Below are positions 6,600 through 64,000 of a stretch of 64,000 bases of DNA, piece by piece. The position numbers and the translations under genes were made by a program. Every line of letters starts with the position of its first letter. Within the stretch, counting starts at the first letter, position 1. Below the pieces are notes generated by a model. It saw nothing but the letters and a program-made list of their open reading frames with translations. It was not told where the DNA came from and did not search any database. Where the stretch lies: positions 62,001 through 126,000 of the forward strand of contig JAVLUZ010000652.1 of the NCBI GenBank assembly GCA_036768485.1. The letters run 5' to 3'. Source of the stretch: Mermis nigrescens (Eukaryota; Nematoda; Enoplea; Mermithida; Mermithidae).

Positions 6600-6870
6600 A
6601 TTAATGTATATAATTTGATTGAATATAGTAAAATTTACCTTTTTGCAGACGATGTAAAAATCTCTGGTCCGTCTTTTGATTATCATTTAATACAAAAAGA
6701 CCTGGATAATATTTATACTCGGTCTATTAATTGGCAGCTTCCTATTGCTACGGAAAAATATACAGTCTTACATTTTGGTAAGAATAATCCAAAAACTTTA
6801 TTCTTTGAATAATATAACTATTCCGAATGAAATTAATTCTGTTCGTGATCTAGGTGTTTATATTTCCCAT
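6600..6870 (+). pseudogene. CR1/Jockey-like reverse transcriptase fragment, left half
   Basis: Encodes KIYLFADDVKISG, with the reverse-transcriptase ADD core, then TRSINWQLPIATEKYTVLHF and, after a change of frame near 6800, VRDLGVYISH, all typical of the palm and thumb of CR1/Jockey-type elements. It is 5'-truncated near 6600 and interrupted at 6870 by element X1. The other half resumes at 10145. Confidence 0.85.
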
Positions 6871-7685
6871 AGCAAAGAAAAATGCTCCGATGGAACAAAA
6901 AAGGGGAATATACTTGGGATTGTGAATTATCGAGGATGTAAAAGGAGGGGACTAGGAAAAATCTCCCTATGTTATATGCCAAAAATCGCAAAATATGTTA
7001 AAAATCCTACTTTCTCTAAACAATGCAAAAAATCGAAGTATATTCTGCGGCCTTTGAAAAATGTAAAAGTTTAGTAAACAATTGTTGTAGACATGTGTAA
7101 AAGAGTATCTACATAAGGTCTGTTGCACGTCAGCTTCCGTGTTTCCTACTGCTTTGAACCAACAATATCATCGATTGTCTTGAATGCATCGATACGTACT
7201 ATTTCATTCAATTCGCTTAGCTACTGCATTGCTAATTCGCTGCTTTTTTCAATCAATTTTTTGGTAATTTGAATATTGCTTGCACTTTGACACTTAGAAT
7301 GGCTGTATCTGCTAAGTGACATGCTTAGTAATAATGAAATACGAACAACTTAATTATGATTTGTTAACAGCATTTCACTTTCAGTCACATTATTAAGCAA
7401 ATCAAAGTTAAATGAAGTCTGCAAAAAGTTGCATTACGTAATATGCTTTTAAGATATTATGTCAATGAGAGAAAATTATTTTAAAATAATACGTTATTTC
7501 AGAGACCGCAGAATATACTTCGATTTTTTGCATTGTCTAGAGAAAGTAGGATTTTTAACATATTTTGCGATTTTTGGCATATAACATAGGGAGATTTTTC
7601 CTAGTCCCCTCCTTTTACATCCTCGATAATTCACAATCCCAAGTATATTCCCCTTTTTTGTTCCATCGGAGCATTTTTCTTTGCT
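6871..7685. repeat. X1 foldback module with 182-bp inverted repeats
   Basis: Left arm 6871-7052 and right arm 7504-7685 are near-perfect reverse complements. Transcripts of this module could form a hairpin about 180 bp long. The 451-bp core (7053-7503) is the reverse complement of the core in X2. Confidence 0.85.
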
Positions 7686-10144
7686 AGTACCCTACTTTTA
7701 ATTAGCAAGATTTGGAAATACAATACTATATTTTATTTACTGTGCGGTTCTTCTAATAATTGAATGATTTAAACTTTACAAAGCTACTAGTTGTAGAAGA
7801 AACAAACATTCTGATTAGTAATTCTTATGTTACGTAGAACATCCTGTAAAGAAATATGCTTCCAAAACTTTCTAGAGCTAAACTTAATTTATATTTTAAA
7901 CTTTACACAAGAGTGCAAAGAATTTTAGTGGGATTAATAATTTCGATATTGCTCTGATATAAAGCTCAGCATTTTTTAAGAAATGAAACCTCTATAATGT
8001 TCTAAGAACATATTAACATTAGGTGTTAATCACTTTACACTACTCTTCATACGCCCTTAGCAGACGTATCACATCTGTTTCCGTATATATTTTACGACTT
8101 TAGGGAAAAAATAAGTTACTGTGAGGCTCTAGAACGAAGCTTATTATATAGTGTGAACTTTACACTAGCAACGAGTGTAAAGCAGATTTTAGTCGGATAG
8201 ACACAGATGTAAACCATTTTACATCACTGTTGAGTGTAAACAAGCGCGCCCAGCTGACGTCCCTTATTTAATCCCATGTAAATTTTCAGATTTCGGCAAA
8301 ACATTTAGGTTTTTGCAAAGCTCTAGAACGAAGATAAACCACTTTACATCACTGTTGAGTGTAAACAAACGCGCCCAGCTGACGTCCCTTATTCGATTCC
8401 ATGTAAATTTTCAGATTTCGACAAAAAATTGAGGTTTTTGCTAAGCTCTAAAACGAAGATTAATTAGCAGTGTAAACTTTACACAACCGCCTAGTGTAAA
8501 GAGGATTTTATGCCGATTTGTAAATCTGATATTACTCGGATATTATTATCAACATTTATGAAAAAATTGCATGTCTACAATGGTCTCAGGACAAATGAAT
8601 AATGAGTGTAAACTACTTTACAACACTGTTGGATGTAAACAAACGCGTCTACGTGACGTCTCACATTTGATTCTTTGAAAATTTCTAGACTCCAGGAAAA
8701 ATTAGGTTTCTGGAATGCTCAAAAATGAAGATAAATACATATGTAGTGTAAACTTCACGTAAACACCTAGTGTAAAGAAGATTTTGGTCAGATTCGTAAT
8801 TTTGATATTGTTCCGATATTACGATTAATATTAATGAAAAAAATTAAGTCTCCATAATGTCCTATGGGCAAACTAACAATAGGTGTAAACCACTTTACAA
8901 CACTGTAGAGTGTAAACATATGCGCCAGACTGGCATATCAAATTTGCTTCCTGGTCCATTTCTAGACTTGATAATCGTGTCCCTGACTCATAACCGGAGA
9001 AGTAGGCAGAAAAAACAAGACAGAAACGCATTTTAAACACCAAATTTTTGACTTTACACTCGCTGAATATTAATGTATAGACAATTTGCTTTGACATGCA
9101 CCCGATATAAAGCACTTTATTTTTATTCTATTGGACTTATCCCGACTTCTGGACGGAGAAAGTGGCGAACAAAAAACGCAACAAAAACGTATTTTCCATC
9201 ATTTAGAACACTGTAAACTTTAAAATTCCGTACCGAACTCCCCATTGAGTTTAAAGAAATTCGGTTTGGTACAATTTTTAGCTTTTAAATCGTAGTACAT
9301 TCCTGTGTGCCAAAATTCTCTTGCAAAAATTATTTGGTATGATTTATTAATCAAAATTCGGAAAAAACGTGTTTTTCCGCCCATTTTTTACCTCTGATTT
9401 CGAACTTTACACCCCCATAAATAACTCAATATTGCGTTATTTTAAATGCGGTTTGCTGCGATGTGTAGTCTCTGAAAGGCACTTTATTACTGCCGTATTC
9501 AATTTACCCTGACATCAAAAGCGGAAAAATTTGGCAGAGAAATCTTAGTTAAAATCCGTTTTTTACACCATCAGCTAGAGTGTAAACTTTAAAACCCAGG
9601 ATCTAACTCACCATAAAGCGTAAAAGACTTTGCTTATATGCAGAATGTAGCCCTTGATCCGCTCTATATTTCTGTCAGAAAACATTTCAAAAAACTTATA
9701 ACCGGAGTTAGTATCAGACATAAGCAGGTTGAAAACTCGACCAAAATGTGCTTTTTCACCCACAGATTTTCGCACTCTTTACACTCCCATTCGAGAACTA
9801 ATGCGAATTTCAACAAACGAAAAAAAGTCATTTTGGAGCATCCCTTCCTCTACAAATCTGTACCATTAATTTATTTGAGGAGTCAATACTGAGTTGTCCA
9901 CATGCCGTCTAAAAAACCTCCCAAAATTCATCCTATGTTGTAACGTTACACAAAAACTTTACTCCTTCCTTACACAGCCAGTTTTGAGTTTCAAGAAAAA
10001 CAAAAAAATACGGGCAGCGAATTTTTTCATTATCTATCTTTTAAAAAAACCGCACCTTCCAGAAGTGTCCCGTTATAGCTGTAGGGGGTGCACAGGTGTT
10101 AGGGGTACCCAAGTATATTATAGGTACGCGCTAACGCGCTACCT
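6871..10144 (+). mobile_element. Element X, copy 1 (complete, nested in CR1)
   Basis: Begins AGCAAAGAAAAATGCTCC and ends in the hairpin AGGTACGCGC-TAAC-GCGCTACCT (10122-10144, one bulged C). Left module: inverted repeats 6871-7052 and 7504-7685 (182 bp each) around a 451-bp core. Body 7686-10144 is non-coding, AT-rich, full of GTGTAAA/TTTACAC motifs, with a 125-bp tandem duplication around 8216-8460. Both flanks show AT at the junction (CCCAT / ATGATA). No transposase was found, so it must be non-autonomous; class unresolved. Confidence 0.75.
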
Positions 10145-10590
10145 ATGATAATCTTAATTGTAAACAGCATTTAGGTCGCATAAATGAAATAGCTGTTTCT
10201 CGTTGTTTGCTTATACATAAAACTTTTCTTTCTTGTGATAAAAGTATTTTAGTAAGTACTTATACTACTTATGTAAGACCCATGCTTGAATTTTCTGTTT
10301 CTGTATATAATCCATATTATGCTAACCATATAAATCGTCTAGAAAATGTTAAACGTAAATTTACTAAAAGTCCTTTAGTAGCTTATCTTATATTGAACGC
10401 CTGAAGCTTCTTGACCTACCTTATTTAGAACTTCGTCGTCTTAACATAAGTTTATGTTTCATGCATCAAATTGATAATGGTTTATCTTGTATTGATGCTA
10501 ATGAATTTTTTATTTTCAGTTCTAACATCAGGCCAGCTGAATATCGTTACAAGCGCATTTTACCAGTTGTTTGTTCCTATGCTCACCTTA
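10145..10590 (+). pseudogene. CR1/Jockey-like reverse transcriptase fragment, right half
   Basis: Directly continues the left half: DNLNCKQHLGRINEI, then TTYVRPMLEFSVSVYNPYY, RLENVKRKFTK, and after a lesion KLLDLPYLELRRL and MHQIDNGLSCID, the usual C-terminal region of such reverse transcriptases. Frameshifts and stops make it non-functional. Few or no residues are missing between the halves, so X1 inserted with little or no loss. Confidence 0.85.
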
Positions 10591-10690
10591 ACGATTGTAT
10601 CCCAACACGGCCACGTCTCAACACGGCCACCGTCCCAACATGGCCACCGTTCCAACAAAGCCACTGTCTCAACAAGGCCACTACCACTGT
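10591..10690 (+). repeat. GGCCACCGT minisatellite
   Basis: Tandem units of about 17-18 bp of the form CAACACGGCCACCGTCC. The reverse complement of the same array occurs at 14577-14727 on the other side of X2. Confidence 0.75.
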
Positions 10691-10834
10691 ATTTTAATTA
10701 GTTAAGTAGGTATTAATACTTAATTACAGGAAGGTAATTAGGCATGGATATATATGTGGCAGCAATTAAATTGATGACTAAAGTTAGTTTTTTACATGCA
10801 TTAATCATGCAGTTCAGGTTAGATAGAATACTTA

Positions 10835-13800
10835 AGCAAAGAAAAATGCTCCGATGGAACAAAAAAGGGAATATACTTGGGATTGTGTATTATCAAGGAT
10901 GTAAAAGGAGGGGACTAAGAATCTCCCTATGTTATATGCCAAAAATCGCAAAATATGTTAAAAATCAGACTTTCTCTAAATAATGCAAAAAATCGAAGTA
11001 TATTCCGCGGTCTCTGAAAAAACGTATTATTTTAAAATAATTTTCTCTGATTGACATAATATCTTAAAAGCATATTACGTAATGCAACTTTTTGCAGACT
11101 TCATTTAACTTTGATTTGCTTAATAATGTGACTGAAAGTGAAATGCTGTTAACAAATCATAATTAAGTTGTTCGTATTTCATTATTACTAAGCATGTCAC
11201 TTAGCAGATACAGCTATTCTAAGTGTCAAAGTGCAAGCAATATTCAAATTACCAAAAAATTGATTGAAAAAAGCAGCGAATTAGCAATGCAGTAGCTAAG
11301 CGAATTGGATGAAATAGTACATATCGATGCATTCAAGACAATCGATGATATTTTTGGTTCAAAGCAGTAGGAAACACGGAAGCTGACGTGCAACAGACCT
11401 TATGTAGATACTCTTTTACACATGTCTACAACAATTGTTTACTAAACTTTTACATTTTTCAAAGGCCGCAGAATATACTTCGATTTTCTGCATTGTTTAG
11501 AGAAAGTCGGATTTTTAACATATTTTGCGATTTTTGGCATATAACATAGGGAGATTCCTAGTCCCCTCCTTTTACATCCTCGATAATTCACAATCCCAAG
11601 TATATTCCCCTTTTTTGTTCCATCGTAGCATTTTTATTTGCTAGTACCCTACTTTTAATCAGAAAGATTTGGAAATACAATACTAGATTCCATTTACTGT
11701 GCGGTTCTTCTAATAATTGAATGGTTTAAACTTTACAAAGCTACTAGTTGTAGAAGAAACAAACATTCTGATTAGTAATTCTTATGTTACGTAGAACATC
11801 CTGTAAAGAAATATGCTTCCAAAACTTTCTAGAGCTAAACTTAATTTACATTTTAAACTTTACACAAGAGTGTGAAGAATTTTAGTGGGATTAATAATTT
11901 CGATATTGCTCTGATATAACGATCAGCATTTATTAAGAAATGAAACCTCTATAATGTTCTAAGAACAAATTAACATTAGGTGTTAATCACTTTACACTAC
12001 TCTTCATGCGCCCCTAGCAGACGTATCACATCTGTTTCCATAGATATTTTACGACTTTAGGGAAAAAATAAGTTACCGTGAGGCTCTAGAATGAAGCTTA
12101 TTATATAGTGTAAACTTTACACTAGCAACGAGTGTAAAGAAGATTTTAGTCGGATTTGTGAATTCGATATTACTCGGATATTACGATCAACATTCATGAA
12201 AAAATTATGTCTCCATAACGATTTAATGACAAATAGACACAGATGTAAACCACTTTACATCACTGTTGAGTGTAAACAAACGCGCCCAGCTGACGTCCCT
12301 TATTTGATTCCATGTAAATTTTCAGATTTCGGGAAAAAATTTAGGTTTTTGCAAAGCTCTAGAACGAAGATAAATCACTTTACATCACTGTTGAGTGTAA
12401 ACAAACGCGCCCAGCTGACGTCCCTTATTTGATTCCATGTAAATTTTCAGATTTCGGCAAAAAATTCAGGTTTTCGCAAAGCTCTAGAACGAAGATTGAT
12501 TAGCAGTGTAAACTTTACACAACCGCCTAGTGTAAAGAGGACTTTATTCCGATTTGTAAATCTGATATTACTCGGATATTATTATCAAAATTTATGAAAA
12601 AATTGCATGTCTACAATGGTCTGAGGACAAATAAACAATGAGTGTAAACTACTTCACATCACTGTTGGATGCAAACAAACACGCCTACGTGACGTCTCAC
12701 ATTTGATTCTTTGAAAATTTCTAGACTTCAGGAAAAAATTAGGTTTTTGGAATGCTCAAAAACGAAGATAAATACATTTGTAGTGTAAACTTCATGTAAA
12801 CACCTAAAGTAAAGAAGATTTTGGTCAGATTCGTAATTTTGATATTGTTCCGATATTACGATTAATATTTATAAAAAGATTAAGTCTCCATAATGTTCTA
12901 TGGGCAAACTAACAATAGGTGTAAACCACTGTACAACACTGTAGAGTGTAAACATACGCGCCAGACTGGCATATCAAATTTGGTTCCTGGTTCATTTCTT
13001 GACTTGATAATCGTGTCCCTGACTCATAACCGGAGAAGCAGGCAGAAAAAACAAGACAAAAACGCATTTTAAACACCAAATTTTTGACATTACACTCGCT
13101 AAATATTAATGTATACACAATTTGTTTTGACATGCACCCGATATAAAGCACTTTATTTTTATTCTATTGGACTTATCCCGACTGCTGGACGGAGAATGTG
13201 GCGAACAAAAACGTATTTTCCATCATTTAGAACACTGTAAACTTTAAAATTCCGTACCGAACTCCCCATTGAGTTTAAAGAAATTCGGTTTGGTACAATT
13301 TGTAGCTTTTAAATCGTAGTACATTCCTGTGTGCCAAAATTCTCTTCCAAAAATTATTTGGTATGATTTATTAATCAAAATTCGGAAAAAACGTGTTTTT
13401 TCGCCCATTTTTACCTCTGATTTCGAACTTTACACCCCCATAAATAACTCAATATTGCGTTTTTTAAATGCGGTTTGCTGCGATGTGTAGCCCCTGAGAG
13501 GCACTTTATTACTGCTGTATTCAACTCACCCTGACTCATAAGCGAGAAAATTTGGCAGAGAAATCTTAGTTAATATCCGTTTTTTTACACCATCCACTAG
13601 AGTGTAAACTTTAAACCCCAGGATCTAACTCACCATAGAGCATATAAGACTTTGTTTATATGCATAATGTAGCCCTTGATCCGCTCTACATTTCTGTCAG
13701 AAAACATTTTAAAAACTAATAACCGGAGTTGGTATCGGACATAAGCAGGTTGAAAACTCGACCAAAAAGTGCTTTTATCACCCCCAGATTTTCGCACTTT

Positions 13801-14167
13801 TTACACTGCCATTCGATAACTAATGCGAATTTCAAAAAACAAAAAAAGGTATATCTGTAGAATTCATCCCTCTATTATCTTGTGCTGTTCAATTCTTCAA
13901 GTCATCAATACTTAGTTGTCCACATGCCGCAGTAAAAAGGTCCCAAAATTTGTCCTATGTTATAACGTTACACAAAAACTTTACACCCTCTTTCCACAGT
14001 CAGTTTTAAGTTTCAAGAAAAACAAAAAAACATGGGCAGCGAATTTTTTTATTATCTTTCTTTTAAAAAAACCGCACCTTCCAGAAGTGTCCCGTTATAG
14101 CTGTAGGGGGGTGCACAGGTGTTAGGGGTACCCAAGTATATTATAGGTACGCGCTAACGCGCTACCT
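10835..14167 (+). mobile_element. Element X, copy 2 (complete)
   Basis: Same plan as copy 1: inverted repeats 10835-11012 and 11464-11642, core 11013-11463 (451 bp, inverted relative to copy 1), body 11643-14167 in the same orientation as copy 1, and 3' hairpin 14145-14167. A 125-bp tandem duplication starts near 12251. The body is highly similar to copy 1 but keeps a segment near 12155-12235 that copy 1 has lost. Confidence 0.75.
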
Positions 14168-14269
14168 AAGATGCACGTGATGCCTTTGTCTGCGTAATTC
14201 CAGCGGAGAAACTTACTACACAATAGAACAGCCTGACTAATTTGCCGCCTCGCTGAGGTAAAAATCTAC

Positions 14270-18880: not shown

Positions 18881-19013
18881 GCTTACAAGTCGCATACGTG
18901 TGCGTCAAAAAGCTTGTCTCAGTCTAGCAACAATCACTACAATCTCACCCTACTCGCATTTGTTTCTCAAAAAATTTACAACGGAAAAAAGCAGACTATA
19001 ATCATACTTTACT

Positions 19014-21767
19014 AGCAAAGAAAAATGCTCCGATGGAACAAAAAAGATGAATATACTTGGAATTGTGGATTGTTACGTATGTAAAATGAGGGGACCAGGA
19101 AAAAGCTACCTAATGTCGCGAAATGTACTAATAATCATACTTTCTCTAAGCAACGCAAAATATCAAAATGTATTCTGTGGCCAACAGATTAAAATAAATA
19201 TTCAACTATAAAAATGATTGAAAAAGCAGCACGTCAGCTATGCAGTAGCTATGGGAACTGACATTGAGTAAGCTAACAGTCTTTCTAAGCCAATTGAATG
19301 AAATAGCAAACATCGATGGATCCAAGACAATTGAAGAAATTGTTAGTTCAAAAAAGTAGGAAATGCGTAAGTTGACTTGAAGAAGACTAAATGTGGGTAC
19401 ACTAGCATGCCCTTAACGATTGTGTGCACTAATCAATCGGCCTATGCTTTGCTTGCTATATTGCTCATAACAAAGTAAAACAACTTTAAATACAATACCA
19501 CTTAGTTTTCTATCAATTAGGATACGAAGATAGTCAACGCTGCTACTTGCCAGCAATTTGAATAAAAAGTAAACATTATAGATTTCGTTTATACACTCTT
19601 ATCTGAAACTTTGAAAATTAGAATCATACTTCGATTTTTTGCGTTGCTTAGAGAAAGTGTTATTTTTAGCAGATTTTGCGACTTTAAGTAGCTTTTTCCT
19701 AATTCCATCCTTTTACATCCTTAATAATCCACACTTCCAAGTTGATTAATTTTTTTGTTCCATCGGAGCATTTTACCCTGCTAGTACCCTACTTTTAATT
19801 AGCATGATTTGAGTACATGAGTCAGTAATACAGTAACATGCCACAATAATGACAGCAGTCCAAGAACGCGGAAAACAATATTGTTCTTAATATCAGCAAT
19901 ATCCTTTTTAAACAACACAACCTTACATCATTTAAACATATCAAAGTTTTTAAGGATAAACTTTACGCAAATATCAAGTGTAAGGAACACTAACGCTCAG
20001 ATTTGGAAGTAAAATAAAGTTGTAGTATAAACTACATATTAACAACAAATGAATTGTGCAAACTTTACACAACTACTATGTGTAGAGAAAACTAACAGTC
20101 AGATTCCCAATTCTGATTTTACGTTGAACATTTTGAAAAAAATTAAGCTTCCGTAAGGCTCTAGAACTAGAGTCAATGTGCAGTGTAAACTTTACACAAC
20201 CACAAAATATAAAAAGATTTTACTTGGATTTGTAATTCTAATATTACTCTGACATTACGATTAAGATTTATGGGCAAATTGAGACTTCACAATAACCCGA
20301 GAACAAATAAACATCAGTTGTAAGCTACTTCACACCACTGTTGAGTGTAAGCAAATGGGCTCAACTGGTGTCTCTTATTTGATTATCGGTACATTTTTAG
20401 ACTTTAGAAAAAATCAAGCTTCTGCAAGGCTCTGGAACTAAATTTAATGGGTAGTGTAAACTTCACAAAAACACACAGTGTGGAGAAAATTTCAGTCGGA
20501 TTCGTAATTCCGATATTACTCTGATTTAACGATCAATATTTATGAAAAAATTAAGACTACACAATGGCCCGAGGACAAATAAATATCAGATGTAAACCAC
20601 TTCACACCGCTGTTGATTGTAAACGAATTGGCGTATCACATTTGGTTTCTGATTAATTTTTAGACTTGAGATTATGTCCAGACTCATAACCCAGAAATTG
20701 GCAGAAAACACGTTCAAGTCCCCCATTTTTTGACTTTAAATCTACCGAAAAAGCTGAATATTGATGTAAAGAAACGCAATTCGCTGTGACGCGTACCCCT
20801 TAGAAAGCACCTGATTTTTATCCTATTCGACCTCGCCCGAGTTCTGAACAGAGAAAGTGGCGGACAAAATATGGACAAACACGTATTTTTAAATGTCCAC
20901 CACATTTGTGACCCTTTGATTGTAGTACGTTTGTATGTGTCAAACTTATGTTTCACAAAATATTTGATATGATTTACCAATCAATATATGAAAAAAACCT
21001 GTTTTTCACCCATTTTATACTAAAGATTTTGAGTTTTATACCCCCTTACCTAACTTAATATTATGTTTTTTTGAACGCGGCTTGCTTCGACGAGTAGCCC
21101 TTAGAAGCTACTTAATTTCTATTTCATTCAATTCATCCCAACTCATAACCGAAAAAGTTGGCAGAGAAATCTTGGACAAAATCTGTTTTTTTCCGCTCAT
21201 CCACTAAAGTATAAAGTTTAAAACCCTGGTACTAACTAGGTATTGATTGTAGAAAAGTTTGCTGCCAAGCACAAGATAGTGCCTGATCCGTAGTACATTT
21301 TTGTCAGAAAAAATTTCTCAAAACTCATAACCGGAATTGTTGGCAGACATAAACAAGTCGGAAACTCGACTAAAATGTGTCTATTCACCCCAGATTTTCG
21401 CACTCTTTTTACTCCCATTCGAGAACTAATGCGAGATTCGGAAAACAAAAAAGCGTCATCCACAGAATTCCTTCATCTACAAATCAATGCCATTAAATTG
21501 TTTGAAGAGTCAATACTGAGTTGTCCACAAGCCCGGTAAAAAAAACCCCGAAATTCACTATATGTAATAACGTTACGCCAAAACTTTACACCTTCTTTAC
21601 ACAGTCAGTTTTTAGTGTTAAGAAAAACAAAAGAAAAGAGACAGAGAATTTTTATGTCTTTCTTTTAAAAAAACTGCACCTTCCATATGTGTCCCATTAT
21701 AGCTGTAGGGGGTGCACAGGTGTTGGGGGTACCCAAGTATATTTAGGTACGCGCTAACGCGCTACCT
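19014..21767 (+). mobile_element. Element X, copy 3
   Basis: Begins with AGCAAAGAAAAATGCTCC after ACT, has a decayed foldback module (arms about 19014-19183 and 19621-19782), and a shortened body with GTGTAAACTTTACAC near 20181. Ends in hairpin AGGTACGCGCTAACGCGCTACCT at 21745-21767. More diverged than copies 1 and 2. Confidence 0.7.
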
Positions 21768-25988: not shown

Positions 25989-28900
25989 AGGTAGCGCGAT
26001 AGCGCAACCTATAATATACTTGCCATCCTTTTTTATATGTTTATCACAGCGAGTGTGAATTTTGTTTCCCCCCTCACAGCAACAACGGCACACACCTTGG
26101 AGGTGCAGTTTGTTTTAATCGATGATAATTAAAAAATTCGATTATGGTGTGTTCTTGTTGTTTAAACTCAATACCGAGTTAGCAATGAGTGTGTAAACTG
26201 TAAATCCGAAAAATCAAATAATTTGCGGCTTGCCAATTTATTTAAAATGTTGTGCCTGAGCTGTAGATTACGAATCTTACCTCAAAATTCCTTTACACTC
26301 AATGGTTGTTGCACAAAAATGTAAAGTATACGGGTTTTTTACTCTTTGCTTGTTTTCAGCTTATCTAAGTCAATTTGGGTTTGTGCTCAGTCCAATTAGT
26401 TTTATAATGCAGAGGATTACAAAATCTCGAGGAACAATTGTTTTTCTTTCTAACGCAATATTGTGTAAACTAGACAATATTTTACTGTTTTTATGTGTAG
26501 AAGCATATTTAACTCAGTTTTACATTCTAAGCAGTCTGATTGGTTTTGAAAGCTAGGGAAGTGGTTTTCATTTTTTTCGAAAAAGTAATATTTTCAAATT
26601 TAGAGGCGGTTTATTGTAAAGAGTCTGGGACAGAAAAATATTTTTTTCCTGTTATATTCTCACCTTAGTAGACAGAACGTGGTAATTATCTTTAAAATGT
26701 GCCTCGTCCTAAGCGCTAAACGTCAAAATTTATTTTGCTCCTTTACAATCAATATTGCGTTATTAGTGCAGGTGTAAACTTTACACTAAGAAATTTTTTT
26801 CCACCCAGAGCGTCGTGGATGATGAATTTAAAAAATGTTTTCTGTAAGGTCAGAATGACGAATCTGACCTTTAAACTTTTATATAGCCGGTGTTTGTTGA
26901 GGTATGAAGATGTGAACTTTGAATTATACATCTATTTTGTAATGCCGATAGATAACTCCGTATTGCATATTCTTCGATCAGATTTTTCTTATTTCAGAGG
27001 TTTTTGACTCGTCTTTAATAAATAATTATTTTTATTATCATAAATGCACTATTCTTACAGCTTCAGTAGAATGATGAATATTTTTCCAAATAGTATGATC
27101 TAGCTGAAATCCGCCGGTATGTTGAGTTGGTGCAGTGGCTGACGTATCCGTTCTCGCATATGGATTTAAAAAATAAACGATGGCTTCAAAGCTTCTGAGT
27201 AATGTTTTTTTTCATTTTTTAGATTCTTTTGGCAAAACCATGCACTTCATTTGACTTATTCATCTATTTAGGTTCTGCATATGACACTTTTTGTTTTTGA
27301 ATTTTGCTTTAGTTCTCGAATAGGAGTGTAATAAGTGCGAAAATCTGGAGGTGAAAAGACACATTTTAATCGAGTTTTCGACTTGTTTATGTCTGCTAAC
27401 AACTCCGCTTATGAATTATAAGAAATGTTTTCTGACTGAAGGGTACTACGGATCAAGGGCTATCTTGTGTTTGCCAGTAACTCTTTCTACAATCAATACA
27501 CAGTTAGTACCAGTGGTTTAAACTTTACACTCTAGTGGATGAGTAAAAAACAGATTTTGTCCAAGATTTCTCTGCCAACTTTTTCGGTTATGAGTTGAGA
27601 TAAATTTGATAAATATTAAATAAAGTTACTTCTAAGGGCAACCCGTCGAAGCAAATCGCGTTCAAAAAAACGTAATATTGAGTTGTTTATGGGGGTTTTA
27701 AAGTTCGAAATCTGAGGTGTAAAATGGGCGAAAAAACAGGTTTTTTTCGTATTTAAATTGGTAAATCATATCAAATATTTGCGGAACATAAGTTCGGCAC
27801 ATACAAACGTACTACAATTAAAGGGTTACAAACTGGCACGAAATGAATTTCAATTTTATTCGTCACTTTCTCTGATCAGAAGTCGGGCGAGGTTGAATAG
27901 GAAGAAAATAAAATACTTTCTAAGGGGTACGCATAAAAGCGAATTGCGTTTGTTTATATCAATATTTTGCTTTTTCGGGAGGTGTAAAGTCAAAAAATGG
28001 GGAGTTGAATGTGTTTTCTGGCATGATCTGGGTCATAAGTCTGGACATAATCTCAAGTCTAAATATGAACCAGAAACCAAATGTGATACGCCTTTTTGTT
28101 TGCACTCAACAGTGGTGTAAAGTGGTTTACATCTGATATTTATTTGTCCTCGGGCCATTGTGGAGATTCAATTTTTCCATAAATCTTTATTGTAATATCA
28201 GAGTAATATCAGAATTACGAAGCCTATTAAAATCTTCTTTACACTCTGGAGTTGTATTAAGTTTACACTGCATATTAACTTTACTTCTAGAGCCTTGCGG
28301 AAGCTTAATTTTTTCAAAAAGTTCTACGTAAAATCAGAATTTTGAATCTGACTGTTAGTTTTCTCTACACCTAATGTGTAGAGTTTGCACTATTTATTTG
28401 TTGTTAATGTGCAGTTTATACTACAACTTTATTTTACTTCCAAATATGAGCCTTATGGTTCCTTACACTTGATATTTGCGTGAAGTTTTTGCTAAAAAAC
28501 TTTGATCTGTTTAAATAATGTAAAGTTGTCTTGTTTAAAAAGGATAATGCTGATGTTAAGGACAATATTGTTTCCCGCGTTCATGGACTGCTGTCATTAT
28601 TGAGGTACGTTGCTATATGTGTTTACTGACTGATGTACTCAAATCATGCTAATTAAAATCAGAGTACTAGCAAAGAAAAATGCTCCGATGAAACAAAAAA
28701 GATGAATATATTATAGGAATTGTGGATTACTAAGGATGTAAAAGGAGGGTGCTAGGAAAAAGCTCACTAAAGTCGCAAAATCTGCTAAAAATCACACTTC
28801 TTCTATGCAACGCAAAGAATCGAAGTAAATTCTGCAGCCTCTAGAATCTGTCTTTTTTAAATAATTTTCAAAGTTTCAGATAAGAGTGCATAAACGAAAT

Positions 28901-29471
28901 TGTTGGCAAGTAGCAATGCTAACTAGCTTCGTATCCTGATTGATAGTAGACTAAGTGGTATTGTATTTGAAGTTGTTTCATTTTGTTATGAGCATTATAG
29001 CAAGCAGAGCAGGTTTTTTTAGATCATACAATCGTTACGGGCATGCTAGTGTACCTACATTTTCTCTGTTTCAAGTCGACCGACGCGTTTCCTACTTTTT
29101 GAACCATTAATTTCTTCAATTGTCTTGGATGCATATTTCATTCAATTGGCTTAGAAAGACTGTTAATTTACCCTATATCCTTTCCCATAGCTACTGCATA
29201 GCTAACGTGCTGCTTTTTCAATCATTTTTATGGTTAAATATTTATTTTAATTTGTTGGCCGCAAAATATACTTCGATTTTTGGCGTTGCTTAGGGAAAGT
29301 GTGATTTTTAGCAGATTTAGCGACTTTAGGTAGTTTTTTCCTGATTCCCTCCTTTTACATCCTTAATAATCCACAATTCCAGGTATATTTATCTTTTTTG
29401 TCCTATCGGAGCATTTTTCTTTTCTTTAAAAGTATATTCGTCTGTTTTCCCTCAGAGCATTTTTCTTTGCT
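25989..29471 (-). mobile_element. Element X, copy 5 (reverse, SINE-containing)
   Basis: Starts with reverse hairpin AGGTAGCGCGATAGCGCAACCT, body in reverse with GGTGTAAACTTTACAC near 26770, SINE at 27001-27250, more body, and the foldback module 28669-29471. The last arm has a small internal duplication, giving two AGCATTTTTCTTT ends (29410 and 29457). Confidence 0.68.
27001..27250 (+). mobile_element. tRNA-derived SINE
   Basis: GTTGGTGCAGTGGCTGACG (A-box-like, 27127-27143) and a decayed B box at 27182-27195, preceded by a 110-bp segment TTTTGACTCGTC... shared with two other copies. It lies at the same body position in all three X copies that carry it. Confidence 0.65.
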
Positions 29472-30240: not shown

Positions 30241-56829
<26,589 letters not shown>

Positions 56830-61587: not shown

Positions 61588-64000
61588 AGCAAAGAAAAAT
61601 GCTCCAATGGAACAAACAGGACGAATTTACTTGGAATTATGCATCATTAAGGACATAAAAGGAGCAGACTAGGGACAAGATTTCTATGTATGCCTGTGAA
61701 TGTTGTAAGAAACTACTAAGAAATTAAACTTGCGCTATAAATGCAAAAAATTTGAAGCATATTATGCGGCCTGCTGAAGGAAGTTGCACCTTCGAGGTAA
61801 ACATATATAACATGAAAAGCTTATTCCTAGAAAGGAAGCGATCACTGATAAAAAAACGGCATAATGTGCATTCTTTAGCTAGCATGCCACACACTGCTGT
61901 AGGGCAGCAATTAGAAGATGGTGTGTTTGTCATAATACATTTATGAAGCCACTGACAATTAAGTAAATGGTATATTGAAAGAGAAATTTGAGATTGATAA
62001 GTCACTGAATCGGATATTAAAGCACATCAAAGCTCCCTCATAATCTCTTTTTCTGAGCCAGTGAAAGATGTTTTCCGAAGTCAAATTTTTTTCAGAAGCC
62101 GCAGAATATACTTCGATTTTTTGCGTTTTTAGCGGAAGTCTAATTCGTACTTTTTGTTCCATCGAAGCATTTTTCTTTGCTAGAACCCCGCTTGTAATTA
62201 AGATGTTTTGGGTAAATCAGTAAGTAAACACATACGGTAACATGCCACAACAATGACAGCAGTCCAAGAACGCGGGAAACAACATTCTTCTGAACATCAG
62301 CATTAACTTTTTTAAACCAGACAACTTTACCTCATTCAAACATATCAAATGTTTTAAGCGTAAACTTTATATAACTACTGGGTGTAAAGAACACTTACAC
62401 TCAGATTCGTAATCCTGACGTCATATGAGATATTTTGAGAAAAATAAAGCTTTTGCAAGGCTCTGAAACTGAAGCTGATTTCCAGTGTGAACTTTACACA
62501 ACTACTGGGTGTATAGGAAATTTGAAGTCAGATTCGTAATCCTGACCTTACGGAACATATTTTGAAAAAGTTAACGTTTTGCAACATTCTGGAAGTAAAA
62601 TAAATTCGTAATGTAAACTATGCATTAGCGATAAATGAATAGTGCAAACTCTACACAATTACTGGGTGCAGAGAAAACTAACAGTCAGATTCGTAATTCT
62701 GATGTTACATAGAACATTTTGAAAAAGATTATGCTTCCGCTACGTTCTATTGCTGAAATTAATTTTTAGTGTAACCTTTTCGCAACCAACCTTTACGTAA
62801 AATAAGTTTTGGTCGGATTCGTAATTCTGATATTACTCTGATATTACAATTAATATTTCAGAAAAAATCAACTCTCTCACAATGGTCCGAATACAAATAA
62901 ATATTAGATGTAAACCATTTTACACCAATGTTGAATGTAAGAATACGCGCCAAACTGACGTATGACGTTTGACCTCCAATACATTTTTAGACTTGTTATC
63001 ATGTCCAGACTCATCACTGAAGAAGTTGGCAGAAAAAACAAGACAGAAACACGTTTAACACCCCCGATTTTAGACTTTACATACACCTTTCAAAAAAGCT
63101 CAATATTGGTATAAATAGACACGATTTGCTGTTACGTGTACGCCTTTAAAAGTGCCTTAGTTTTTTTCTATTCGACTCACTCCGACTGCTAAACGAAAAA
63201 AAGGGGAACAAAAAATGGACAATAACGTATTTTTTCACCATCCTCCTAATTGCGAACCTATTTGAGATATTAATTAATCTAAAAAGGGAAGGAAACGTAC
63301 ATTTTCGCCCAATGTTACACCCACGATCGCGAACTCTACACCTCGGGAAGTAAATCAATATTGAGTTTTTCGAATGCAGTTTGCTGCGACGTGTAACCCA
63401 TAAGGCGTACTTTATTTTTATTTAAATCACATGTCTTGACTTATAACCGGAGAAGTTGGCGGAGAAACCTAAGACAAAAACCTGTTTTTTACACCATTTA
63501 CCAGATTGTAAATTTTAAACCCGTGGATCTAAATCCGTATTTAGTGTAGAAAAGCTTGATGGTAAAGCGAAAGTAGCCCTTGTTTTGTAATACATTTCTA
63601 TGAGGAAAAATTTCTTTGTACTCATACCCAGAGTTGTTGGCAGACAAAAAGGCCAAAATGTGTTTTTTCACCCTCAGATTCTTTACACTCTTTACACTGC
63701 CACTCTGAAAACAAGTCACTATTCAAAAAATAAAAAATTGATTTTCTGCTTACTTAATTGTCTACAATTTTTAAAAAATTAGACTAAACAGAATGCAAAA
63801 CTGAGTTAGACAAGTCGAGCGTCCGACCAAAATTTAAAAAAATCCTATATGTTATAACAATACAGTAAAACTTTTCACTCTTTACACACCGTGTATTGAT
63901 TTAAAAAATCAAAAAATACCCGCACCAAATTTTTTTATTATATATCTTTAAAAAAACCGGATATCCCAGATATGTGCCATTAGAGCTGTAGGGGGTGCAC
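61588..64000 (+). mobile_element. Element X, copy 11 (runs off the window)
   Basis: Starts AGCAAAGAAAAATGCTCC after ACT, arms about 61588-61770 and 62097-62181 (right arm shortened), then body with many TTTACAC motifs. Ends at the window edge in GCTGTAGGGGGTGCAC, about 50 bp before the expected hairpin. Confidence 0.7.

Follow-up and report, generated by a model that had tools for sequence, protein, structure and literature searches.

The 64,000-nt window analyzed here, a stretch of the Mermis nigrescens genome (G000:C608:62001-126000), contains several copies of an abundant, non-coding mobile element designated element X, in which a core lies between two inverted arms at the 5' end and is followed by a long body. 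Comparison of these copies with one another and with copies elsewhere in the genome (524 Mb in 860 contigs) showed that the core was flipped repeatedly but rarely, its orientation being otherwise inherited. Within one young family the flip happened several times, and an older family underwent it at least once. The orientation is given relative to the body, p being the state of copy 1 and m that of copy 2. The base composition of the window is approximately 65% A+T, with long (TA)n tracts; together with a LINE-like frame, this is in keeping with an invertebrate. Copies 1 and 2 are organized as follows.

6871..10149, forward strand: the complete copy 1 of element X, interrupting a LINE-like reading frame without target duplication
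6871..7059, forward strand: copy 1 left (5') arm, starting with AGCAAAG at the element end
6907-6918: AATATACTTGGG within the copy 1 left arm, inverted match of the 3' end
7060..7496, forward strand: copy 1 core, orientation p, 437 bp
7497..7686, reverse strand: copy 1 right arm, the left arm inverted with its outer end included
7687..10107, forward strand: copy 1 body, diverged tandem repeats
10108..10149, forward strand: copy 1 3' end, consisting of CCCAAGTATATT, the palindrome 10120-10146 and then GAT
10835-14172: copy 2 of element X
10835..11019, forward strand: copy 2 left arm, carrying the 3-bp deletion of its subfamily
11020..11456, reverse strand: copy 2 core, orientation m, 437 bp, 99% identical to the copy 1 core
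11457..11643, reverse strand: copy 2 right arm
11644..14172, forward strand: body of copy 2 with its 3' hairpin end

The initial annotation of this DNA had noted that the bodies and arms of copies 1 and 2 share the same arrangement with one core being the reverse complement of the other, and this was confirmed. In pairwise alignment the two cores were 99% identical, solely as reverse complements, and the regions 6960-7599 and 10917-11556 were 98% reverse complements over 640 nt, while the bodies (starting at 7687 and 11644) ran in the same direction with 92-96% identity. The arms were complementary at 98% over 190 nt in copy 1, and at 94% over the ungapped 161-nt part in copy 2. The cores are indeed equal in length, but measure 437 bp; the 451 bp given previously goes with slightly shorter arms. 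The copy 2 core (11020-11456) also carried two adjacent substitutions that, elsewhere among the cores read, were confined to the copy-1 subfamily, suggesting a local conversion from copy 1.

Opposite cores were also present among the copies of an older family in the window.

19011..21760, forward strand: copy 3, core m, 3' limit approximate
27281..29425, reverse strand: copy 5, core m, 3' limit approximate
36764..38846, reverse strand: copy 6, core p, limits approximate
38854..40391, reverse strand: copy 7, core m, 3' limit approximate, (TA)n tract abutting the 5' end
43386..44590, reverse strand: copy 8, core p, 5' module and first body part, left arm truncated

Pairwise alignment found the cores to be reverse complements in the pairs 1/2, 3/6, 3/8, 5/6, 5/8, 6/7 and 7/8, and of the same sense in 3/5, 3/7, 5/7 and 6/8. 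This agreed with the earlier observation that copies 6 and 8 are opposite to 5 and 7, and placed copy 3 on the side of the latter two. Across the families, where 112-191 bp matched, the copy 1 core had the sense of copies 6 and 8 and the copy 2 core that of 3, 5 and 7. The core matches among the window copies are far beyond chance. The arrangement of copy 8 was shared by all 20 of its fetched relatives. Copies 8 and 9 (43907-45990) seem to form a single element in which two 5' hairpin modules are stacked, and 19 of the 20 fetched relatives had the second arm upstream. The cores of copy 9 (44968-45723) and copy 11 (61776-62085) showed no clear match to the other window cores, and the arms around them were of the same kind as in the other copies. 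The loop of element X thus seems replaceable, judging from these two cores.

Four genome searches gave 3653, 1745, 4716 and 3864 candidates, with 40 scored in each. An orientation-blind sample was obtained with a 481-bp body query lacking the core (40 scored of 1745 candidates), and consisted of 25 m copies, 14 p copies and one without core, the core having been lost in an assembly gap. Five pairs in this sample had upstream flanks in common; counting each pair once left 35 insertions, namely 21 m, 13 p and one without core. All of the 12 copies nearest copy 1 were p, and the remaining 28 were 25 m, two p and one that could not be assigned. Core orientation tracks subfamily closely. The copies nearest copy 1 had CT at two arm sites and those nearest copy 2 a 3-bp arm deletion, and none of 500 shuffles on the tree gave a count of orientation changes as low as that observed. 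Copies 1 and 2 fall in two sister subfamilies in which orientation hardly varies, so that recurrence would not be revealed by this pair alone. A survey of core against body orientation had been proposed in the initial annotation, with two separate subfamilies bearing diagnostic substitutions as the pattern that would speak against flipping. That pattern holds for copies 1 and 2, including the diagnostic arm changes, but not as the whole story.

The recurrence was evident from a tree of 53 bodies, from which the arms and core were excluded. This tree omitted repeat fetches (L001-L008, L040, L041), copies with shared flanks (L020, L027, L038), a copy whose core was gone in an assembly gap (L029) and two with long branches (L035 and L052), and retained the shared-flank pairs L030/L066 and L061/L064, all m. 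It included copies from a p-core query, from which 20 copies were taken (18 new), all p by selection. Orientation required at least five changes on this tree and five to six across the bootstrap trees; the well supported branches alone forced two. A single clade for m was rejected by the approximately unbiased (AU) test (p = 0.00016). On a first tree of 48 rows, containing L035 and L052, six changes were needed and three of them were forced.

Nearly identical bodies with opposite cores led to the same conclusion. The bodies of L025 (p) and L022 (m) differed at 5 of 1999 sites, and their cores at 1 of 436 sites after the flip; those of L025 and L021 (m) differed at 2 of 1998 sites, with three gaps in addition. 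The upstream flanks of L025 were unlike those of L021 and L022, showing that these are separate insertions. The L021 core contained eight scattered substitutions and one insertion, its body being almost identical to that of L025. No core site separated p from m among 55 cores. In the older family, for which counts were few, both orientations were found and the core tree of eight rows required two changes, one of them forced. The tree and the near-identical bodies with opposite cores reject the explanation by two subfamilies as the whole story, and the repeated flipping claimed in the initial annotation was borne out by the minimum of five changes, the AU test and these bodies.

Flips were nevertheless rare. 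None was detected in the clade with CT at the two arm sites among 11 orientation-blind copies (plus one from the p query), nor in the 16 rows of the deletion clade, copy 2 included, which correspond to 14 separate insertions. In the copy-8 family, the 20 copies fetched of 40 hits were concordant with copy 8; the left arm is truncated there and the insertions are maybe not separate. None of the five shared-flank pairs was discordant. The rate of flipping is probably below approximately 12% per copy, from 0/25, and the absence of a flip in these 25 young-clade copies excludes flipping in half of new copies. No open frame of the copy 1 core exceeded 51 codons. With only short frames in this core, with no clear match of the cores of copies 9 and 11 to the others and with concordant shared-flank pairs, there is no support for a regulatory switch or for any switch that serves a biological function. 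The part of the earlier claim that called the flipping a natural inversion switch was therefore not sustained, the uniformity of the young clades also speaking against it.

The history of the arms was read from their substitutions in 42 copies. L020, L036 and L038 were dropped from this set, L013 and L035 had no usable left arm, and L059-L068 lay outside it. Substitutions seen in a single copy occupied one arm in 105 cases and both arms in three; five further variants occupied both arms of one copy and recurred in a single arm elsewhere, and with these included the both-arm count was eight. When 45 copies were used, the counts were 132 single-arm versus three both-arm. The variants of subfamilies, namely the two CT sites, the 3-bp deletion and site 44 of L016/L057, were present in both arms of most carriers. 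Fisher tests gave p values of ~2e-6 and 6e-6, which serve as a guide only, as the subfamily counts (4 versus 0) were entered by hand. As private variants mostly occupied one arm and subfamily variants both, the arms were matched before insertion and not after it. New copies thus seem to begin with matching arms, which later drift apart.

One copy connected the arms with the flip. L045 has a p core, and its 3-bp deletion was confined to the left arm. Its sister clade consisted of 16 rows with core m (support 99/96 and 98/94), and the deletion was present in both arms of 15 of these; in the remaining one, L036, it was in the left arm only, the right arm being damaged. L045 suggests that arm homogenization and loop inversion took place on the same branch, perhaps as one event. 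Two core-side arm substitutions were found to move together with the core.

The ends of element X were then compared with those of known transposons. The 5' end was ACTAGCAAAG in most copies, with differing flanks. A 12-bp subterminal inverted match between the 5' and 3' ends was formed by AATATACTTGGG (6907-6918) and CCCAAGTATATT (10108-10119). The 3' palindrome (10120-10146 in copy 1) was detected with at most six errors in 15 of the 21 rows long enough to reach the 3' end, and was absent at this threshold in L044, L047, L052, L056, L057 and L058. The 5' flank ended with TT in only 4 of the 47 copies with an identified 5' end (among 56 scanned rows), the commonest 5' flank triplet being TAT (13/47). 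The joined flanks of copy 1 gave 346 candidate places; at the 40 that were scored, they matched over 82-89 bases, with no net gap in 39 and a 1-base difference in one. The insertion of copy 1, the single insertion to which this analysis was applied, accordingly made no target duplication. Many uninterrupted copies of the frame split by copy 1 (6640-6870 and 10150-10420), which we take to be a LINE-like reverse transcriptase, exist elsewhere in the genome.

The genome carries RepHel genes, as shown by 32 Helitron_like_N matches. Of the three RepHel places read (L089, L090 and L091), L090 and the 9.9-kb L091 showed no ends of element X. In L089:2349-3525 a copy of X sits inside the Helitron RepHel reading frame, and this gene was rejected as an autonomous partner, since the adjacent X 3' end represents an insertion of X into the gene. 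The arms were located at the 5' module only and the 3' end was a hairpin end, an arrangement that differs from foldback elements and from elements with terminal inverted repeats. From these sequence features, element X is probably a non-autonomous, Helitron2/Helentron-like element with an enlarged 5' hairpin. We did not file it as HINE, because the place of the 5' match and the target differ and no autonomous partner was found among the places read.

Inter-arm strand switching during the copying of such an element, with its large 5' hairpin, is the explanation that we favor with moderate confidence. The hairpin consists of two arms of ~190 bp, starting from the element end, and the core as a loop of ~437 nt; the arms would pair when the element is single-stranded or under copying, and the growing strand would switch between the paired arms. 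A switch and return inside the arms would make them match again, and a switch across the loop would leave it inverted. A crossover between the arms, in a source element or in a circular intermediate, would produce the same flip. The flip of the loop looks like an accident of hairpin copying, not an on/off switch. Template switching between inverted repeats has been described to homogenize arms and invert the spacer, according to the sections available of PMC8604942. A further proposal, that transposition regularly includes a snap-back of the 5' hairpin copying arm onto arm, which would give new copies matching arms from the start, and that an occasional misresolved snap-back flips the loop, can be put forward only tentatively.

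Several observations weigh against the strand-switching explanation. The precedent in PMC8604942, as far as its available sections go, concerns arms of ~7-16 bp and spacers of up to 70 bp. The starred inner branches of the 53-body tree were only 5 of 48, and 17 of its 30 p rows derived from the p-core query. The case of flip and homogenization on the same branch is a single copy, L045, and the arms are too uniform to locate a crossover place inside them. The cores of L021 and L025 differed at 9 of 436 sites and a gap, spread out, and this excess is unexplained. A variant at column 148 of the core alignment was shared by 9 of 31 p cores and by none of the 24 m cores; L025 has it and L021 and L022 do not, a pattern that fits old coexisting p and m sources equally well. 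Some of the tree changes could be exchanges of a whole 5' module between copies. The corresponding alternative is that two old lineages with opposite cores have swapped bodies or 5' modules, with one or two true inversions per family. The strong clustering of orientation by subfamily (0/500 shuffles as low) and the confinement of the column 148 variant to p agree with it, and the shared-flank pairs and the L021 core shift the balance slightly from strand switching towards it. We still regard it as improbable, given that no fixed difference distinguishes p from m cores within the young family, that the older-family cores match the young ones over only 112-191 bp, so that each family would need its own inversion, and that L045 is p yet has the arm deletion in common with m copies.

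Homologous recombination between the two arms of a copy, by crossing-over and gene conversion, could act at any point once the copy is in the chromosome, and would also flip the core and even out the arms. Inverted arms that are long and almost identical offer it a good substrate, the core-side substitutions accompany the core as a crossover predicts, and the two neighbouring copy-1-type substitutions in the copy 2 core resemble conversion between copies, copy 1 lying a few kb from copy 2. The private variants (105 in one arm versus three in both, or eight with the recurrent sites) indicate that conversion after insertion was rare, the young clades are uniform in orientation, and the five shared-flank pairs are concordant, though perhaps very recent duplicates. 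We therefore consider this route unlikely as the general explanation, while recombination may act in source copies. The ends of parvoviruses undergo flip-flop by hairpin transfer with an HUH-type Rep protein, and an obligatory flip-flop of this kind in each round would account for a terminal palindrome with a loop in both orientations; the 3' end and the lack of target duplication likewise suggest a Helitron-type Rep. About half of the new copies should then be flipped, but none was among the 11 CT-clade copies, the 14 deletion-clade insertions or the 21 copies of the copy-8 family (left arm truncated). The uniform clades rule out the obligatory form, and we give this alternative very little weight. 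It is still harder to credit that arm, core and arm together form an inverted-repeat transposon of their own, which inserted beside the body in either direction. The arm ends do coincide with the element end and the cores of copies 9 and 11 are unlike the others, but near-identical bodies differ in orientation with the unit at the same place, and copy 1 was inserted without target duplication; all searches used the body or the unit with the body, and solo units were not sought and may have escaped notice. Misassembly, with the core placed the wrong way between short arms, is disfavored by the uniform orientation inside the young clades.

Element X resembles the Helitron2/Helentron non-autonomous elements (HINE, DINE-1, Pearl and Cg_HINE) in the short inverted match of the ends (12 bp in X), the 3' hairpin, the 5' hairpin, the internal tandem repeats and the lack of target duplication; these features are described in the available parts of PMC4067079, PMC7492417, PMC5148889 and PMC3627910. 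In the parts available on Helitron2-like elements, the transposase gene is inverted relative to the ends in FoHeli4/5 versus FoHeli3 and a few others. Unlike HINE, in which the inverted match lies 0-4 nt inside the 5' end and the target is TT, X has the match approximately 39 nt inside its end ACTAGC and targets (TA)n or AT-rich sites. The 5' stem of X (~190 bp, with a 437-nt loop) is far larger than that of Cg_HINE (~7-12 bp), and its loop is found both ways in near-identical copies, whereas the accessible description of Cg_HINE gives the repeats one orientation to the flanks, with no exception. Foldback and Galileo elements also have long inverted repeats and tandem repeats, with sequence exchange proposed between repeats and copies (PMC3573991, from the parts available). 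They differ in that X has inverted repeats at one end and its one tested insertion lacked target duplication; Galileo, moreover, belongs to the P superfamily. In yeast genes, template switching between inverted repeats likewise homogenizes arms and inverts spacers, with both reported jointly in one case (PMC8604942, in the sections available); the arms and spacers there are far shorter, and the setting is host genes, not a mobile element. In the literature searched, much of it available in part, loop inversion was not described for any non-coding Helitron-like element, which does not prove its absence.

Repeats of the Helitron2-like non-autonomous type are very common in several invertebrates; the role of their 5' hairpin is only assumed in the available portion of PMC3627910. 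The X family, with well over 1000 candidate copies, is a natural record of the fate of the 5' end during copying. If the snap-back proposal is true, the loop orientation would record errors of transposition intermediates that can be counted in the genome.

Other observations concern the surroundings of the element. Many X copies are flanked by (TA)n. A single (TA)n tract at 40387-40690 separates the 5' end of copy 7 from the facing 3' end of a further X copy, an arrangement like that of a head-to-tail insertion. Truncation on the 5' side, within or at the arm, was seen in L013, L025, L035 and 50977-51130, in some cases directly on (TA)n. A 23-base arm pattern gave no match in bacterial/archaeal and viral contigs, and Rfam gave none at gathering scores. 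The region 54571-54936 presumably resembles a serine protease; Pfam on four short window peptides gave no match. Two similar open stretches on the reverse strand, 46608-47000 and 51651-52043, show a repeated motif SIAYLVA when translated, and are probably a minisatellite present twice.

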